DNA of 32,912 nt, from assembly GCA_020433455.1 (NCBI GenBank), contig JAGRCP010000101.1, positions 24,525-57,436 of the forward strand, in the 5' to 3' direction. Positions within the stretch are counted from its first letter, which is position 1; each line of letters opens with the position of its first letter. The notes under the pieces are model-generated. The model was not told the DNA's origin. It searched no databases and saw only the letters and a program-made list of their open reading frames with translations. This stretch comes from Caldilineaceae bacterium. Lineage in GTDB: Bacteria > Chloroflexota > Anaerolineae > Caldilineales > Caldilineaceae. Positions 18,819-29,671 of the stretch are shown one piece after another. The position numbers and the translations under genes are program-made.

Positions 18819-18888
18819 ATTGGGTGATTGGTTAATTGGGTAACTGGCTGATTGGATGACTTGTCATCAGTCATCAAGTCAACCAATC
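18819..18888. repeat. GATTGG repeats and a 14-bp stem spanning the YfhO-like stop
   Basis: GATTGG-type units recur through 18819-18858. A 14-bp inverted repeat with one mismatch then pairs 18850-18863 with 18875-18888 around an 11-nt loop. The right arm covers the last codons and stop of the minus-strand YfhO-like gene. There is no T-run after it on the minus strand, so termination would not be classical. Confidence 0.5.
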
Positions 18889-21623
18889 AACCGCGCAACC
18901 CAAAACAGCGCAACCGTCAGCAGCATGCCCAGTCCGGCCAGGAGGAGTCCCGTGAGCCAGCCTGTGGGCTGATAGCGCAGAATAACCGTGTGCTCGCCGG
19001 CGGGGAGCGGTACGCCGCGGAAGAGATAGTTAGCAGGCAGGACCGGCGCGGCCTGACCGTCCACCGTCGCTTGCCAGCCTGGGTAGTACGTGTCGGTCAG
19101 GACGAGGAGCCCGGCCGCGTCGCTCCGGGTGCGTACCTCCACCCGCTCCGGCCGGTAGGTGATGATCTCCGCTCTGCCCGCGTCGGAGTCGGCTTGCGGA
19201 GAAAAGTCGGCCGGGAGATCGCCTTCCAGCGCAGGCTTGCCCAGAGCGGCGCTGACATCCTCCTCCAGATAGGCCAGGGCTTCCTCGGGGTCGCCCACCG
19301 GCTGCCAATCGGAAAGAAGGCGGGCCCGGGGCGTGACGGCTTCGTTGCGGTAAATTTTCACGTCGCCGCTGTGGACCAGGGAAAATGCGCCCCGGTCCGA
19401 TGGGAGGAGGGGCGTAAACATGCCCGTCCGCGCGTCGACCAGCGTCACCGCGCGGATGACGACATCGCGGTCGTCGGCCAGGCGGGTTACGATCAGGCCC
19501 TCGGGCGCAAGGGGCGCGGCAAGAGACAGGCGCGCCAAATATTCCTGCTCCCCCTTCTCCACATCCCGATAGGCGATCTCCGCGCCGGCGGCCGCGGCTG
19601 CCGGGCTGTCCAGGCGCGGGTCGGCCCACGCCGCACCCGGCTCATGGCCCGCGTTGATGGTGAGCGTCTCCGTGATCGCGCCGTTGTGCAGGACGTCCAC
19701 CCGCGCGATTGGGCGATTGGGGCCCGGCGCATCCTCCCCCGCAACAAAACCGATAACGTTGATATGGGTCGCTTCAAAGGCGATGGGCGCGTCAATGGTC
19801 ACGGCGGGCAGTTCATCCGTCAGGCGCGCGCCGATCTGCCGGTCATAGTAGACGTCATCGTACCAGAGGTCCCGGACCTTGTCGGTGATGATGTGCTCTA
19901 CGTTGAAAAGGGTCAGGCGGTCAGCCGGCGGCATCTCGTCGATCTGCTCGCGCAGGCGGCCGTCGGGCACCAGCTCCTCGGGCGGAATAAAGAGAGTCAG
20001 GCTGCGGAGGTAGCGCTGGAGGGGCAGCACGCCGCCGTCAAAGCCGTCTACCGCCGGCACGCGCCACAACAGCGGCAAATTTGGTGCCAGAATTTCCTGG
20101 GATTTCTGGGCGATGACCAGCTGGCGAAAGGCCCGCTCATCCAGCGCCGCGTGGTCGCCCTGCGCCAGAATGCGGTGGTAGTCGGCCATGTCGCCGGGGT
20201 CAAAGGTGAGCGCGCTCATGCTCAGAAAGCGTCCGGCCGCGTCGGGATGATCCCCGCGATCCGCAGCTGTGAGCAGATGCGCGGGCGCAGTGCGCAAGCC
20301 ATAGACCGCATCGGGCGCGGTGGTTTGGGTGTGGGGCAACGCCCGCGCGGCCAGCAGCAGTTCAACGCCCGTGAGGCCGACGAGGAAAACGGGCGCTAAT
20401 GTCCGCATCCGAGGCCCATGTTTTTGCAGGGCCTCTGCGCCTATACCGGCCAGCACGGCCATCCCCAGGGTGTAGAGCATCATCCAGCGCGCGGGCGCGC
20501 GGAAGAGATCGAAGCCGGGCACGATTTTGTAGAAGGCATAATAGGCGGGATTCCAGCGCCCCGCGGCCAGAAAGAGCCCCAATCCGGCAAAGAGCAAGCC
20601 AAAGGTCCGGCTCCCTCCCCGCCCGCGCCACGCGCCCAGCAGGGCCAGGAGCATTCCCGCGACGCCCACGTACGCCACAAATTCGGTGTAGCCTTCCGTG
20701 GCGAAGACGACGCCCAGATCGGCCAGGCCATAGGAGGGGAAGAGGGTCCAAAACAGGTACAGGGGTTTGAGGCTGAAGCTGCCGGCCTCGCTGTAGGAGA
20801 GGCCGCCGCTGCGCAGGCCCAACCCGCTTAGTTCCAGGGTGGGCAGAAGTTGGGGCGCGGCCAGGAGCGCGCCCAGGATCACGCCGCCGCCGTATGTAAG
20901 CAGGCCGGGCGCTATGCTGCGCAAAGCCCGGCCCGGCGCGCGCAGCGTGACCCGATCAACCAAGGGCCAAATGCTCCAGACGCCCGCGGCCAGGAGGTTG
21001 ATGTAGACGGATTGGGTGTGACCGGCCAGGAGCATGAGCGCAGTAAGGAGCCCGAACAGAGCGGCGCTCTGCGCCATCCGGGCGCGCTTTTCCTGTACGT
21101 TCTCCAGCACGAGAATGAGCCAGGGCAGCCAGGCCACGCCGTTCAGTTGGTTGATGTGGCCGACTAATCCGCCCACGAAACCGCTTCCGGCCAGAATCAC
21201 GCCGGTGGTGAGGGCGGCAAAAAAGCCGTAGCCCCAACGGCGCATGAGGGCATAGCCGCCCAACCCCAGAAGCCACGTGTGGAGGGCCGCGCTCCAGTAG
21301 ATCTGCCTGGTGACGGGCAGCCAGCTCAAGGGCCAATGAAGGGGGTAGAGGACCGCGGCCTGGGGATTGGCCAGGAAGGGCGCGCCCATAAAAATATAGG
21401 GATCCCAGAAGGGGATGCGGCCTTCCCGCAGCGCGGCCGCGGCGTAATCGCGGTAGGGATAGAAGTAGTGGAGTATGTCGCCCCCGGCCAGCACCCGGTT
21501 GGTGAAGAGCAGCCGGGCAAAGAGGGCCAGGACAAAGAGGAGCAGGACCAACGCCGCGCCGCCGGCGCGGATTCGCGCCGGGCGCAGACGGGAGGAAGGC
21601 GACGAAACGTGAGAACCGGACAT
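18879..21623 (-). CDS. YfhO-like polytopic membrane protein
   Basis: A 914-aa protein with an N-terminal span (about residues 20-42) and roughly ten more spans to about residue 420, with one span at the extreme C-terminus. Landmarks are DILHYFYPYRDYAAAALREG (an acidic first loop typical of GT-C-like enzymes), 'PFWDPYIFMGAPFLANPQAA', 'GHINQLNGVAWLPWLI', and near the end 'LTDTYYPGWQATVDGQ' with 'LPAGEHTVILRYQP', both hallmarks of the YfhO family. Some members modify envelope polymers with sugars; this one may do so, but donor and acceptor are unknown. No Shine-Dalgarno precedes the ATG; a weak promoter so close that the mRNA might be nearly leaderless is noted separately. Confidence 0.88.
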   Translation of the reverse strand: MSGSHVSSPSSRLRPARIRAGGAALVLLLFVLALFARLLFTNRVLAGGDILHYFYPYRDYAAAALREGRIPFWDPYIFMGAPFLANPQAAVLYPLHWPLSWLPVTRQIYWSAALHTWLLGLGGYALMRRWGYGFFAALTTGVILAGSGFVGGLVGHINQLNGVAWLPWLILVLENVQEKRARMAQSAALFGLLTALMLLAGHTQSVYINLLAAGVWSIWPLVDRVTLRAPGRALRSIAPGLLTYGGGVILGALLAAPQLLPTLELSGLGLRSGGLSYSEAGSFSLKPLYLFWTLFPSYGLADLGVVFATEGYTEFVAYVGVAGMLLALLGAWRGRGGSRTFGLLFAGLGLFLAAGRWNPAYYAFYKIVPGFDLFRAPARWMMLYTLGMAVLAGIGAEALQKHGPRMRTLAPVFLVGLTGVELLLAARALPHTQTTAPDAVYGLRTAPAHLLTAADRGDHPDAAGRFLSMSALTFDPGDMADYHRILAQGDHAALDERAFRQLVIAQKSQEILAPNLPLLWRVPAVDGFDGGVLPLQRYLRSLTLFIPPEELVPDGRLREQIDEMPPADRLTLFNVEHIITDKVRDLWYDDVYYDRQIGARLTDELPAVTIDAPIAFEATHINVIGFVAGEDAPGPNRPIARVDVLHNGAITETLTINAGHEPGAAWADPRLDSPAAAAAGAEIAYRDVEKGEQEYLARLSLAAPLAPEGLIVTRLADDRDVVIRAVTLVDARTGMFTPLLPSDRGAFSLVHSGDVKIYRNEAVTPRARLLSDWQPVGDPEEALAYLEEDVSAALGKPALEGDLPADFSPQADSDAGRAEIITYRPERVEVRTRSDAAGLLVLTDTYYPGWQATVDGQAAPVLPANYLFRGVPLPAGEHTVILRYQPTGWLTGLLLAGLGMLLTVALFWVARLIG

Positions 21624-21632
21624 GATAGCGGG

Positions 21633-21661
21633 ATTGTGGATTCTCGCCGGGAAATTGTCAA
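21633..21661 (-). promoter_or_regulatory. weak promoter, possibly leaderless, for the YfhO-like gene
   Basis: On the minus strand a perfect TTGACA (21656-21661) is followed after 17 bp by CACAAT (21633-21638). Transcription would start only about 3 nt before the ATG at 21623, which fits the absence of a ribosome site. The -10 is poor. Confidence 0.3.
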
Positions 21662-21685
21662 TTACGCCGCTATCTGCTACGGCTT

Positions 21686-21714
21686 TTGACAGATAAAATG
21701 ACCGGGTCTATACT
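21686..21714 (+). promoter_or_regulatory. near-consensus sigma-70 promoter ahead of the gatC leader
   Basis: A perfect -35 TTGACA (21686-21691), a 17-bp spacer and -10 TATACT (21709-21714). This is the best housekeeping promoter in the window. Transcription should start near 21721, more than 300 bp before gatC. Confidence 0.75.
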
Positions 21715-21720
21715 GGCGGG

Positions 21721-21911
21721 CATGATGAACCATCTGTCCGTATTCGTCGCGAATATCGCCAATCGCGCCGCTGCGCAGGCTGCGGCGGCAGCTAGCTGCG
21801 TGTTGCGGTAGGGACGGAAGTCCGCCGCAGCACGATTCTGCGGCGTAGGTTATGGGCCAATCTGTACGATTTGCAACGCCGTGGAAGCTTCCACGGCGTC
21901 TTTCATTTTTT
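21721..21911 (+). ncRNA. candidate structured small RNA or gatCA attenuator leader
   Basis: The ~190-nt transcript runs from the near-consensus promoter to an intrinsic terminator and has no credible ORF. By eye it can form TATTCG/CGAATA (21741-21755), a 12-bp palindrome GCAGCTAGCTGC (21788-21799), and a two-part hairpin TGCGG/CCGCA enclosing GGAC-GGAA-GTCC with a GNRA-type tetraloop (21804-21829). CCGCAG (21825-21830) can instead pair with CTGCGG (21838-21843), so these two folds exclude each other. It may be a free sRNA, a 6S-like RNA by size, or a leader whose terminator controls gatCA. No known riboswitch consensus was recognised. Its reality rests on promoter plus terminator. Confidence 0.5.
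21876..21911 (+). terminator. intrinsic terminator 117 bp before gatC
   Basis: A perfect 24-bp palindrome at 21876-21899 (10-bp stem closing an AGCT loop) is followed by C and then TTTCATTTTTT (21901-21911). Lying upstream of gatC on the same strand, it must either end a separate RNA or act as an attenuator. Confidence 0.85.
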
Positions 21912-22028
21912 GGTCCGGCGGGCGCAATGCGCCAATGCATCCAAATCAATTGGGCGTCTTCAAGCTCAGCGGGGGCGTCCGCTTTACTGACCACTGATCA
22001 TCCGACTGATTATCTGAGAGGAAGCCTT

Positions 22029-22319
22029 ATGCGCTTATCACCCGATGACGTGCGCCACGTGGCGGAGCTGGCCAAGCTCAGCCTGACCGCGGAAGAGGCG
22101 CAAGAGTATGCTGAACAATTGTCGGATATTCTGGAGTACGCAGACGCGCTCAAGGAGATCGACACCACGGGCGTGGCACCCACGCCCTACGTGTTGCCCC
22201 TGACCAGCGTCATGCGCGAAGACGAGCCGCATGACGGCCTCAGTAATGAGGAAGCCCTGGCCAATGCGCCTGATGCCGCAGACGGCTTTTTCCGGGTCAA
22301 AGCTTATTTTGGGGAGTAA
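22029..22319 (+). CDS. gatC: aspartyl/glutamyl-tRNA amidotransferase subunit C
   Basis: A 96-aa small subunit that stabilises GatA-GatB and helps convert Glu-tRNA(Gln) and Asp-tRNA(Asn) to the amidated forms. Typical features are 'LSPDDVRHVAELAKLSLTAE' at the N-terminus, 'QLSDILEYADALKEIDT' and the terminal 'DAADGFFRVKAYFGE'. The frame is open further upstream, but AGAGGA lies 7 bases before this ATG and family length fits. gatA starts 13 bp after the stop. The leader contains the terminator and possible RNA described above. gatB is not in the window. Confidence 0.96.
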   Translation: MRLSPDDVRHVAELAKLSLTAEEAQEYAEQLSDILEYADALKEIDTTGVAPTPYVLPLTSVMREDEPHDGLSNEEALANAPDAADGFFRVKAYFGE

Positions 22320-22332
22320 CCGCGGGAGAATC

Positions 22333-23817
22333 ATGAACTTATACGAACTGACCATTCAGGAAGCGCTGGACGGCATGGACCGGGGCGATTTTACGGCGGT
22401 GGAGCTGACCGCGGATCTGCTGGGCCGCATCGGCGCTGTGGAAAGGGAGATCCAGTCCTTCCTCACCGTAACGGGCGAGTTGGCCCTGGCGCAGGCCGCG
22501 CGGGCGGACGCGCGGCGGCGGCAGGGTGACGCTTCCCCCCTCCTGGGCATTCCTCTGGGCATCAAGGATGTCCTCTCGACCCGGGATGTGGAGACGACCT
22601 GCGGCAGCAAAATCCTCAAGGGCTACGTGCCGCCCTACACCGCAACCAGCGTAAAGAAGCTGGAAGCGGCCGGTATGGTTATGCTGGGGAAGACCAATAC
22701 CGACGAGTTTGCCATGGGGTCCAGCACCGAGAACAGCGCTTACCACACCACCCGCAATCCCTGGAACCTGGAACGGGTGCCCGGCGGCAGCAGCGGCGGT
22801 TCGGCCGCAGCCGTGGCCGCGGGCGAGGCGTTGGGCGCCTTGGGCACGGATACGGGCGGCAGCGTGCGCCAGCCGGCTTCCTTTTGCGGCGTGGTGGGGC
22901 TCAAGCCTTCTTACGGCCGCGTGAGTCGCTATGGGCTGGTCGCCTACGGCAGCAGCCTGGACCAGATCGGGACCTTAACCAAAGACGTGAGGGATGCCGC
23001 GCTGCTCCTCAACGTCATCGCGGGTCATGATCCGCGTGACAGCACCAGCCTGCCCGACGCGACGCCGGATTACCGCACCGCCCTCACCGGCGACGTGCGC
23101 GGCTTGCGCGTCGGCGTGCCTGCAGAGTACTTCATCGACGGCATAGAGCCGGATGTGGAGCAGGCCGTGCGCGAGGCCATTGCCCAGTTGGCGCACCTGG
23201 GCGCGGAGATTATCCCCGTAAGCCTGCCCAATACGGACAAGGCCGTTCCCGTCTATTACATGATCGCCACGGCGGAGGCCGGCGCCAATCTGGCCCGCTT
23301 TGACGGCATCCGCTTCGGCTACAGCGCGGGCGCGGATCGCCTCATGGACAACTACCGCCAGACCCGGGGCGAGGGTTTTGGTCCTGAGGTGAAGCGCCGC
23401 ATCATGCTGGGGACCTATGTGCTGAGCGCGGGGTACTATGACGCGTATTACGGCAAAGCTCAGCAGGTGCGCACCCTCATGAAGCAGGATTTTGAGGACG
23501 TCTTTAGCCGGGTTGATGTGATCGCATGCCCGGTTTCGCCCACCACCGCGTTCAAAATCGGCGAAAAGTCCGACGATCCCATGGCCATGTATCTGGCCGA
23601 CGTCTTTACCCTCAGCCTGAATCTGGCCGGCATGTGCGGCATCAGCGTGCCCTGCGGTTTGGATGCTGCCGGCCTGCCCATCGGCCTCCAGCTTATCGGC
23701 CCCCACCTGGGCGAAGAGGTCATTCTCCGCACGGCCCACGCCTACGAGCAGAGCACAAATTTTGGCCTCAGCGTCGGTGGATTGGCCGCCGCTAGCCGCC
23801 GGCACGTTGCGGGCTGA
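22333..23817 (+). CDS. gatA: aspartyl/glutamyl-tRNA amidotransferase subunit A
   Basis: A 494-aa amidase that releases ammonia from glutamine for transamidation of mischarged tRNA. The amidase-signature Ser-Ser-Lys triad is visible: Lys in LGIPLGIKDVLS, the cis-Ser in GGSSGGSAAAVAAG and the nucleophile Ser in GTDTGGSVRQPA. After that comes GVVGLKPSYGRVSRYG, a GatA hallmark. The start is MNLYELTIQEAL, preceded by GGGAG; a longer in-frame start at 22231 would overlap gatC and is rejected. It forms an operon with gatC, probably extended to the aminotransferase 87 bp downstream. Confidence 0.97.
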   Translation: MNLYELTIQEALDGMDRGDFTAVELTADLLGRIGAVEREIQSFLTVTGELALAQAARADARRRQGDASPLLGIPLGIKDVLSTRDVETTCGSKILKGYVPPYTATSVKKLEAAGMVMLGKTNTDEFAMGSSTENSAYHTTRNPWNLERVPGGSSGGSAAAVAAGEALGALGTDTGGSVRQPASFCGVVGLKPSYGRVSRYGLVAYGSSLDQIGTLTKDVRDAALLLNVIAGHDPRDSTSLPDATPDYRTALTGDVRGLRVGVPAEYFIDGIEPDVEQAVREAIAQLAHLGAEIIPVSLPNTDKAVPVYYMIATAEAGANLARFDGIRFGYSAGADRLMDNYRQTRGEGFGPEVKRRIMLGTYVLSAGYYDAYYGKAQQVRTLMKQDFEDVFSRVDVIACPVSPTTAFKIGEKSDDPMAMYLADVFTLSLNLAGMCGISVPCGLDAAGLPIGLQLIGPHLGEEVILRTAHAYEQSTNFGLSVGGLAAASRRHVAG

Positions 23818-23832
23818 CCGGATCGCAACGTG
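23803..23832. other. 9-bp hairpin spanning the gatA stop codon
   Basis: CACGTTGCG (23803-23811) and CGCAACGTG (23824-23832) are perfect inverted repeats, with the gatA stop codon in the loop. There is no T-run. It could pause or protect the gatA 3' end before the aminotransferase gene. Confidence 0.45.
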
Positions 23833-23904
23833 TGAGCGGCTCAAACCGGCGGTAGTGCATGTCATTTTCAATCGCCAAACTCCTTTCCCACAGAGGCCAA
23901 TTTT

Positions 23905-25146
<1,242 letters not shown>

Positions 25147-27060: not shown

Positions 27061-29592
27061 CTACCCAAGCTGGCGCCTTGCCTCTACGACGTTGGGCAAT
27101 CGATCGATCTTGGTCAGAATGCGGGTAAGCTGGGCGGCGTTGCCGATCTCCAGCGTGGCGTTGATGATGGCCATATTATTCTTCTGCCCCGTCAGCGCCT
27201 CGACGCTCACCATGTTGATTTTGTCATCGGCCACCAGTCCGGCCACATCCCGCACCAACCCGGCCCGATCATAGGCGCTGACCCGAATTTTGACCGGAAA
27301 GGTCTGCTCCTGCTGTGTCTTCCACTGTACGTCAATGAGCCGGCCCTCGCGCCCCTTGCGGAAGGTGCCGTCCACATTGGGACAGGTCGTGCGATGGACG
27401 GTGATGCCCCGCCCTCGGGTGACATAGCCCACAATCTGATCGCCGGGCACAGGATTGCAGCAGCGCCCCAGGTGGGTCAGCAAGCCGTCCACGCCCTGCA
27501 CTTGCAGACTGCCCGTGGCGACCCGGTTGACCTCGCTGCGCTTAACGTTGAGTTCTTTGTGCCACTCATCCTTGCGCTCTTCCTGCTCCTTGTCCAACAA
27601 TTTTTGCGCGATGTGCTGAGAGTTGACTTCGCCGTAGCCGATGGCGGCCAGGAAATCATCCACTCGCTCATAGTTGGGAAAGAGGCGCATCACCGACTCA
27701 AAACTGTCGGTGACGGAGAGGCGCTTTAGCTCCTTTTCCAGCATGTGGCGGCCGCGCAGGATGTTGTCGTCCCGATTTTGCTTACGCAGCCAGGAGCGGA
27801 TCTTGCTGCGCGCGCGTTGGGTCGCAATGTACTCCAGGTTGGGGTTGAGCCAGTCGCGACTGGGCCCGCCGCGCTTGGCCGTCACCACCGAAACTTGATC
27901 GCCGGTTTGCAATTTGTAGTCCAACGGTTTTAGTTGGCCGTTGACATTGGCTCCCCGGCAGCGGTGGCCCAGTTCCGTATGGATGGCGTAGGCCAGATCG
28001 ATGGGCGTAGAGCCGGCGGGCAGATCGATCACATCGCCCTTGGGCGTAAAAATGTAGACCCGATCATGGAACACGTCTGAGGCCATGCCGTCCAGAAAGG
28101 CCCCGGCGTCGGTCACTTCGTGGCGCCAGTCCATGAGCTGACGCAGCCAGTTGATCTTTTCCTGGAACTTGTTTTCGAATGCACGTCCTTCTTTGTACGT
28201 CCAGTGCGCGGCAATGCCCAATTCGGCGATTTGGTGCATCTCGTGGGTGCGAATCTGCACCTCCATGGGCAGGCCGCCGTCGGGGCTGACGACCGCGGTG
28301 TGGAGGCTGCGATACATATTCTCCTTGGGGTTGGCAATGTAGTCGTCAAACTCGCCGGGGATGGGGCGCCACAGCGTATGCACCACGCCCAGCGCCGCAT
28401 AGCATTGGGCCTCCGTGTCAACGATAATGCGGAAGCCGTGGATGTCATAGATGTGCTTAAAATCGACGCCCTTGCGCTCCATCTTTTTCCAGATGCTGTA
28501 GATGTGCTTAGGCCTGCCGCTGATTTCCGCCTGAACGCCGACCTGATGGAGAGCGTGCTCCAATTCCTTGATGGTCTTGTGCACCAGCGCCTCGCGTTCG
28601 CTGCGCTTTTGTTCTAGCTGTTTGGCCAGATCCTGGAAGAGTTCCGGCTCCATGTAGCGGAAGCTCAAATCCTCCAACTCCCACTTGATCTGCCAGATGC
28701 CCAGACGATTGGCCAGGGGCGCAAAGATCTCCTGAGTTTCCCGCGCGATGCGCTTGCGCTTGTGGCCGGGTTGCCCTTTCAGCGTGCGCATGTTGTGCAG
28801 GCGATCGGCCAGCTTGATCAACACGACCCGGATATCTTCCACCATGGCCAGAAACATCTTGCGTAACGATTCGGCCTTGGCGTCGCTCATCGTGATGGTG
28901 CGCTCGCCCACCGTGGCTGTTTTAACTTTGCTCAGTTCGTTGATGCGCTTCAGCTTGGTAACGCCGTTAACCAACTCGGCTACCGTGTCGCCGAAGTGAG
29001 TCCTGAGATATTCGATGTCAAATGCCGTATCCTCCGCCACATCATGCAGCAGGCTGGCCGAGAGCGTGTCCACGTCCAGGTTCAGTTCGGCCAAAATAAC
29101 GGTGACGGCAATCGGATGGGTCATGTAGGATTCGCCGCTGCGCCGCTTCTGCTCCCGATGGGCATAGCTGGCAACCAGGTAGGCTTTGAGCAACTGTTCC
29201 TTCTCTGCCTGGCCGAAATAGGACGGCAGATGATTCATCAGATAGTCCATACCGTCGATCTCGTCCTGGCCAGGCTCAATGCGAAGAACGTCCTGTCCGT
29301 CCATCGTAGGCAGGTCCGGAAAAAGCAATTGCGCCTGCATAGCGGCAGGCGCAGGACGAGAGGCATCTTTGGTTTTTGGCAAACTCTGCCTGTTGGGCAT
29401 TTTTTCTACACTATGAAGGTCGGCATCTGCCGCGTCACCGTTTGTCCAGGGTCCATTGTCCGGCTCCGACTCATCCGGGGCGTCGGAGACAGGCTGCGCG
29501 TCGCGCACTGCTTTGCGCACTTTCCCATTTACGGGGGGGGTCGGTCGCTCTTCTTTGTCTGGATATCGAGGTATTACTGTTTGCGCCTTCAT
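27061..29592 (-). CDS. rel: bifunctional (p)ppGpp synthetase/hydrolase
   Basis: Makes and degrades (p)ppGpp in the stringent response. Numbering from the upstream ATG at 29613, the order is: non-conserved N-terminus (1-120); HD hydrolase with intact HDxxED (LLHDVAEDT, His190-Asp195); synthetase (about 365-475, 'GRPKHIYSIWKKM', 'YDIHGFRIIVDT', 'PGEFDDYIANPKENMYRSLHT'); TGS ('DRVYIFTPKGDVIDLP', about 520-580); conserved cysteines (GRCCNPVPGD) and C-terminal ACT ('VSAYDRAGLVRDVAGLVADD'). The synthetase carries EFDD rather than RxKD. I chose the ATG at 29592 (843 aa) because AGGAG lies 6 bases upstream; the ATG at 29613 has no ribosome site. A G8 run at 29533-29540 falls in the extension. It has its own promoter, downstream of miaA. 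Confidence 0.96.
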   Translation of the reverse strand: MKAQTVIPRYPDKEERPTPPVNGKVRKAVRDAQPVSDAPDESEPDNGPWTNGDAADADLHSVEKMPNRQSLPKTKDASRPAPAAMQAQLLFPDLPTMDGQDVLRIEPGQDEIDGMDYLMNHLPSYFGQAEKEQLLKAYLVASYAHREQKRRSGESYMTHPIAVTVILAELNLDVDTLSASLLHDVAEDTAFDIEYLRTHFGDTVAELVNGVTKLKRINELSKVKTATVGERTITMSDAKAESLRKMFLAMVEDIRVVLIKLADRLHNMRTLKGQPGHKRKRIARETQEIFAPLANRLGIWQIKWELEDLSFRYMEPELFQDLAKQLEQKRSEREALVHKTIKELEHALHQVGVQAEISGRPKHIYSIWKKMERKGVDFKHIYDIHGFRIIVDTEAQCYAALGVVHTLWRPIPGEFDDYIANPKENMYRSLHTAVVSPDGGLPMEVQIRTHEMHQIAELGIAAHWTYKEGRAFENKFQEKINWLRQLMDWRHEVTDAGAFLDGMASDVFHDRVYIFTPKGDVIDLPAGSTPIDLAYAIHTELGHRCRGANVNGQLKPLDYKLQTGDQVSVVTAKRGGPSRDWLNPNLEYIATQRARSKIRSWLRKQNRDDNILRGRHMLEKELKRLSVTDSFESVMRLFPNYERVDDFLAAIGYGEVNSQHIAQKLLDKEQEERKDEWHKELNVKRSEVNRVATGSLQVQGVDGLLTHLGRCCNPVPGDQIVGYVTRGRGITVHRTTCPNVDGTFRKGREGRLIDVQWKTQQEQTFPVKIRVSAYDRAGLVRDVAGLVADDKINMVSVEALTGQKNNMAIINATLEIGNAAQLTRILTKIDRLPNVVEARRQLG
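29533..29540. repeat. G8 homopolymer in the rel N-terminal extension
   Basis: Eight consecutive G on the plus strand (C8 in the mRNA-sense strand) encode Pro-Pro in the non-conserved start of Rel. A single-base slip would shift the frame before the hydrolase domain. A similar G8 lies at 13233-13240 in the SPFH leader. Confidence 0.6.
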
Positions 29593-29671
29593 GCGTGCTC
29601 CTGCCTGGGACATTCAGAGACGAATCACCCGATAGAACAGAGGGGGCTGTTGCGGGCCTGTATCGTCCACA

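Follow-up and report, generated by a model that had tools for sequence, protein, structure and literature searches.

The window analysed here, a stretch of 32,912 nucleotides that represents contig C19 of a 5.25-Mb Caldilineaceae genome (G000), carries gatC, gatA, and a class I/II aminotransferase gene in tandem, preceded by a leader region with a promoter, a small open reading frame (ORF), several competing RNA helices, and an intrinsic terminator (Table 1). The order gatC-gatA-aminotransferase is kept in all relatives with a sufficiently long contig. In G000, gatB lies approximately 22 kb away on the opposite strand, and the upstream neighbour of the gatC leader is a divergently oriented YfhO-like gene (18879-21623). 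The best models for the aminotransferase are general or aspartate aminotransferases; alanine might be its product, a question on which sequence alone is not decisive. An aminotransferase can be the main source of alanine in Bacillus subtilis, where this role is ascribed to AlaT (YugH) by Sidiq et al. 2021 as cited in PMC12893347. A full-length RelA/SpoT homologue (HD, synthetase, TGS, and ACT domains) is encoded on the minus strand at 27061-29613, some 2 kb past the operon; by its location alone, it is a possible link to amino-acid starvation.

Table 1. Features of the gatC leader and of the downstream operon (window coordinates)
Feature	Position	Strand	Basis or remark
Sigma-70-type promoter, TTGACA-17-TATACT	21686..21714	+	11/12 consensus positions; -35 box 21686-21691, -10 box 21709-21714
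Leader ORF, 29 aa, MMNHLSVFVANIANRAAAQAAAAASCVLR*	21722..21811	+	ATG 7 nt past the -10 box; leaderless or close to it
Ala-codon block, codons -14 to -6 from the stop, one Gln codon inside	21767..21793	+	Predicted ribosome-stall zone that would leave region A free
Region A, CGTGTTGCGG, final leader-ORF codons, antiterminator 5' strand	21799..21808	+	Pairing with B; reassortment test and covariation
P0 hairpin, GGAC-GGAA-GTCC, closes the A:B loop	21812..21823	+	Same-place hairpins in most genera, combined z -4.7
Region B, CCGCAGCACG	21825..21834	+	Pairs with A (ON) or, within CGCCGCAG (21823-21830), with C (OFF)
Region C, CTGCGGCGT	21838..21846	+	Partner is B in the OFF state (hairpin T1), D in the ON state
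Terminator hairpin T2, D (21876-21885) with E (21890-21899)	21876..21899	+	Palindrome; T2 and U-tract in 41/41 element-bearing genomes
U-tract of T2	21900..21911	+	T-rich up to 21911
gatC	22029..22319	+	PF02686 / TIGR00135; first gene under proposed control
gatA	22333..23817	+	TIGR00132, 608.7 bits
Class I/II aminotransferase (AspAT-like), third operon gene	23905..25146	+	Profile matches; synteny after gatA

The promoter had already been singled out, with its two boxes and 17-bp spacer, in a sequence-only reading of this DNA, and is borne out by its consensus match; it is the sole promoter-like site on the plus strand of 21600-22060, where 0.3 would be expected on both strands, and a pattern search with 17-18 nt spacing recovers it in approximately 35 of the 41 relatives. 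Transcription is predicted to start at about 21721, so that the start of the leader ORF coincides with it or lies within about one base. The 190-nt leader RNA folds more stably than shuffled sequences (z -3.36), in keeping with the structured stretch previously described after the promoter. Its terminator T2 is the palindrome ACGCCGTGGA-AGCT-TCCACGGCGT, with 10 bp and a tetraloop. The sequence-only reading had recognized both this palindrome and the T-tract but gave as 24 bp what is a length of 24 nt; its spacing of 117 bp from the T-tract to gatC agrees with the 117 nt between 21911 and the ATG at 22029. Searched against Rfam at gathering and relaxed thresholds, the leader matched no family.

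An element of this kind was identified upstream of gatC in 41 of the 43 Caldilineaceae genomes with enough sequence, across 15 genera and once per genome, with a shared layout of promoter, Ala-rich ORF, region A at the ORF end, usually P0, hairpin T1 (B:C), and T2 (D:E followed by the U-tract). A covariance model (R1) trained on 20 of the element sequences returned a single strong match in each genome, in every case before gatC; G000 has its match at this locus alone. Among other Anaerolineae, 33 regions upstream of gatC were without the element, as were 14 additional loci sampled more widely, mostly from Chloroflexota. Upstream of gatC in G012 (L002) and G023 (L054), promoter and terminator are kept while the leader ORF and A:B are lost; these two genomes are natural losses, useful for comparing constitutive with regulated gatCA.

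The distance from the end of T2 to gatC varies from 17 to 148 nt over the 41 genomes and is 17-50 nt in many genera (17 nt in g4, 29 nt in g2, approximately 33 nt in g7, 35 nt in g16, and approximately 45 nt in g9, with a range of 29-47 nt in g2, g7, g9, and g16 together). Such short intervals leave no room for a second promoter, and gatC transcription must therefore traverse T2; in the window, no promoter-like site was found in the interval. These distances bear directly on the proposal, made in the sequence-only reading, that the leader is a free-standing regulatory RNA of about 190 nt resembling 6S RNA, with gatC transcribed from elsewhere. While a good promoter, a terminator, and a stable fold would suit such an RNA, the unfailing linkage of the element to gatC, the closeness of T2 to that gene, the empty T2-gatC interval of the window, and the lack of an Rfam match, including that of the 6S RNA covariance model (RF00013) at the gatC leader, make this very improbable, and the candidate was rejected on linkage and distance. 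The terminated leader would nevertheless be an RNA of this size, and we take the ~190-nt species to be the terminated product of an attenuator.

Neither the leader ORF nor the second switch, in which B and D compete for C, figured in the sequence-only reading. The leader is kept as an Ala-rich ORF in 41 genomes, with 6-10 nt between the -10 box and the ATG in most of them. The alanine run is the strongest conserved coding feature of the leaders. In 14 of 15 genera, positions -6 and -7 hold Ala codons; the block spans approximately -13 to -6 across genera, with all four third bases occurring at -8 to -13; Ala codons with such varied third bases point to selection at the codon or peptide level. 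At the peptide level, the run AAAxAAxxVxR* is conserved among leaders, the C-terminal residues (VLR, VSR, VPR, VLW, LSAGG) vary in step with RNA pairing, and the stop codon sits on the switch. A fixed Z:A hairpin within the ORF, equivalent to the classical 1:2 protector, was sought by eye and proved inconsistent across genera.

This coding character speaks against a metabolite riboswitch or a T-box type leader acting with no translated ORF. Alternative hairpins in a non-coding leader would give a similar appearance, and a T-box precedes the non-discriminating AspRS gene in G000, but what is conserved in the gatC leader is a reading frame whose third bases vary codon by codon and whose stop codon falls on the switch, and no Rfam aptamer matches at gatC, so that we regard this explanation as scarcely credible. 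Covariance models of the T-box (RF00230) and of the glutamine riboswitches (glnA and glutamine-II) gave no match at the gatC leader, nor was a stem I or an AGGGUGG antiterminator found. The T-box of G000 (RF00230, E 1.4e-11, below the Rfam gathering score) lies at L247:237-515 on contig C172, before the archaeal-type non-discriminating AspRS2, and its specifier, read by eye, is GAC (Asp); it is a candidate sensor of tRNA charging for the enzyme that partners GatCAB.

Two sets of helices can form from the five segments of the leader. In the ON set, A and B form a hairpin around P0 (GGAC-GGAA-GUCC in the RNA) and C pairs with D; in the OFF set, B and C form hairpin T1, in which CGCCGCAG pairs with CTGCGGCG (21838-21845), and D pairs with E. 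The sets are mutually exclusive, and covariation is seen in both. On alignment A2, 96.7% of cells are paired in either set, with 18 double-change cells for the ON helices and 11 for the OFF helices, and none of 500 shuffles was as good, both sets lying above all 500 in cells paired and in covariation score. Covariation of stems among relatives upstream of gatC, to which the sequence-only reading had looked as a check, thus holds for the helices of both states. The dual use of CCGCAG (21825-21830) that it described is likewise recovered, this segment belonging to the A:B hairpin and to T1, whereas its GGAA tetraloop hairpin stands in part: it is present in the window, and relatives usually have a hairpin there but do not keep the GGAA loop. 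More generally, the P0 sequence, of which GGACGGAAGU is a part in the window, is not kept in relatives.

The sequence class of A shifts between genera (GTGTCCCGG, GTGCTCCGG, GTGCTGCGG, and CTGTCCGCAG, with GTGTTGCGG in the window), and B shifts along with it. Own-genus A:B pairing has a mean of -18.6 kcal/mol against -14.7 (sd 0.65) for permuted partners and beats all 50000 reassortments, although in single species A:B is not always above chance when compared with shuffled A. C:D also favours its own partner, with 109 of 50000 reassortments as good. A U-run of its own follows T1 in part of the genera; in the others, with which the window belongs, it is missing, and T1 could there work solely through the release of D to T2.

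To relate these helices to translation, the RNA left free by the ribosome was folded codon by codon, with the ribosome masking 12 nt from the first base of the A-site codon onward and the transcript ending at D. In the window model, a ribosome at positions up to codon -6 leaves 5-10 bp of A:B, 8.8 bp of C:D, and no B:C, while a ribosome between codon -4 and the stop leaves no A:B, 5.5-7.4 bp of B:C, and 0.1-2.0 bp of C:D. The modelled switch falls at codon -8 in g16 and at -6 or -7 in the other 14 of the 15 genera; since codons -6 and -7 are the exact end of the conserved Ala block, ribosome-mediated attenuation appears likely. In a few genera, among them g7, g12, and g14, and in one g9 species, masking A does not abolish the predicted C:D, which in these models hardly depends on A. 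When the whole transcript is folded at equilibrium, T2 forms in most species at any ribosome position (0.98 in the window), and the switch must consequently be kinetic, decided before E is transcribed. These two results weigh most against the attenuator model, and the leader losses in G012 and G023 and the uneven single-species A:B pairing also count against it.

The leader thus combines a promoter and a short ORF, a codon run that would free the antiterminator strand, exclusive and conserved helices, and an intrinsic terminator with a U-tract ahead of the first gene, with no second promoter. Comparison among genomes establishes the ORF, the Ala block, the four helices and their mutual exclusion, the position of T2 near gatC, and the confinement of the element to one family and one locus. 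On this basis, and from the folding models, we consider it highly probable that the element controls the gatC-gatA-aminotransferase operon by ribosome-mediated transcription attenuation; the attenuator that the sequence-only reading had offered beside the small RNA is well supported by the exclusive covarying helices and by the closeness of T2 to gatC. We infer translation of the leader ORF, stalling, readthrough, and a signal, as follows. RNA polymerase would start near 21721, and a ribosome would load on the leader ORF at the RNA 5' end. By passing the Ala block to the stop, the ribosome would cover A, so that B joins C in T1, D remains available to E (T2), and transcription ends after approximately 190 nt. 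A ribosome held at or before the Ala block would instead leave A exposed; A:B would form, the freed C would take D, T2 would be blocked, and RNA polymerase would enter gatCA.

Stalling could in principle arise from nascent-peptide arrest or from drug-inducible attenuation, with the Ala-rich peptide or a ribosome-targeting compound halting the ribosome. We judge this unlikely: the peptide-level run is conserved, as arrest would have it, but the C-terminal residues follow the RNA pairing and do not look like a fixed arrest motif, and gatCA does not belong among resistance or stress genes. The arrest explanation gains some weight from a look-alike architecture of other Anaerolineae, in which leaders ending PCRSAP.. 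stand before ABC-transporter and GNAT genes. These look-alikes were seen in other Anaerolineae families at L266, L267, L269, L270, and L271, before ABC-transporter ATPase or GNAT genes, and consist of leader ORFs (three with the PCRSAP.. ending) followed by tandem hairpins of the GGCCGTGGG..CCCACGGCC type; in the three tested, the leader end pairs with T1 at -25 to -36 kcal/mol. They are possibly drug-inducible.

Given ribosome-mediated attenuation, low Ala-tRNA is the most likely signal, although we hold this view tentatively; low Asn-tRNA, the product of GatCAB, comes next and is possible at best, and some other signal, such as nascent-peptide arrest or general translation stress, is doubtful. 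By classical logic, the repeated codon indicates alanine. Asn codons would suit GatCAB, while Ala codons suit the operon only if the aminotransferase makes alanine, and the alanine interpretation is weakened by alaS, none of whose copies in eight family genomes has an Ala-type leader.

The same attenuator could alternatively sense Asn codons, a stall upstream of the Ala block switching the operon on as product feedback, a variant that we think rather unlikely. G000 encodes AsnRS, GlnRS, and an archaeal-type non-discriminating AspRS, which alongside GatCAB point the pathway to asparagine; in Deinococcus/Thermus with the same synthetase set, GatCAB makes asparagine on tRNA (PMC4206432). No AsnB-type asparagine synthetase was found over the cut-off in G000, g9, or g16 (AsnA was outside the search). 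Past the first three codons, leaders contain 16 Asn codons against 7.0 expected, an approximately 2.2-fold enrichment (p about 0.001) that is modest after testing several amino acids, and these codons often stand immediately before the Ala block. However, their position is not fixed, and several leaders (g2, g10, g17, and some of g3, g7, and g9) have none. An Asn or Gln codon is present in every full-length leader; Gln codons are not enriched in leaders, and Gln as the signal was rejected for this reason. The sensing of tRNA amidation or glutamine that the sequence-only reading had suggested for an attenuator is thus no more than a conjecture. In G015, G021, G025, and G029 (genus g16) and in G061, GlnRS is present and no AsnRS was found over the cut-off, so that Asn-tRNA there would come from GatCAB only. 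When the ATG closest to the TATACT box is taken as the start, the g16 leaders contain Asn codons and no Gln codons.

A second conserved element was observed at 23760-23870 of the window and in the gatA-aminotransferase gaps of relatives (loci L103-L120). It consists of a short ORF ending like GVGGLATAxRR and, after it, the hairpin GCCGGCAAC...GTTGTGnAAnCGGC with a covarying inner stem (7/13 pairs); neither a U-tract nor an Rfam match was found for it, and in G000 gatA appears to run on at its end into this ORF (NFGLSVGGLAAASRRHVAG*).

If the proposed mechanism is true, a whole bacterial family adjusts how much amidated or alanylated tRNA it has by translating a tiny ORF. The element also adds a small ORF that lacks annotation and a terminated RNA, both directly checkable in Chloroflexota transcriptomes. 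The literature searched held no leader-peptide attenuation of gatCAB and no operon attenuation by alanine codons. We tentatively propose, as one reading among several, a first Ala-codon attenuator, in which Ala-tRNA shortage, acting through a leaderless Ala-rich ORF and a two-step relay (A:B frees C, and C takes D), would turn on an amidotransferase/aminotransferase operon, with related relays using other peptides at ABC transporters elsewhere in the Anaerolineae.

Among known systems, 6S RNA (RF00013) is alike only in the length of the terminated product; the gatC element does not match it, is cis-linked to gatC, and has a leader ORF and an intrinsic terminator. T-box leaders (RF00230) resemble it as transcription attenuation linked to tRNA charging, but they bind tRNA directly and have no leader ORF, and the gatC element is without T-box features. 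Arrest-peptide attenuators (tnaC, ermCL, and others) share a leader peptide and a stall-dependent choice of hairpins, whereas no fixed C-terminal arrest motif appears to be conserved at gatC. Closest are the trpL, hisL, pheL, leuL, and ilvL attenuators (exemplified in Rfam by His_leader and Leu_leader), which likewise combine an ORF with a repeated codon, exclusive hairpins, a U-tract terminator, and a biosynthetic operon, and the gatC element displays the sequence-testable features of the trp, his, and leu examples. It differs from them in its Ala run, in place of Trp, His, Leu, and the like, with no sequence relation; in an antiterminator strand that lies inside the last ORF codons; in a leader at or near the transcript 5' end; in its target, a tRNA amidotransferase operon; and in five segments that work as a two-step relay, which is a distinct attenuator layout.
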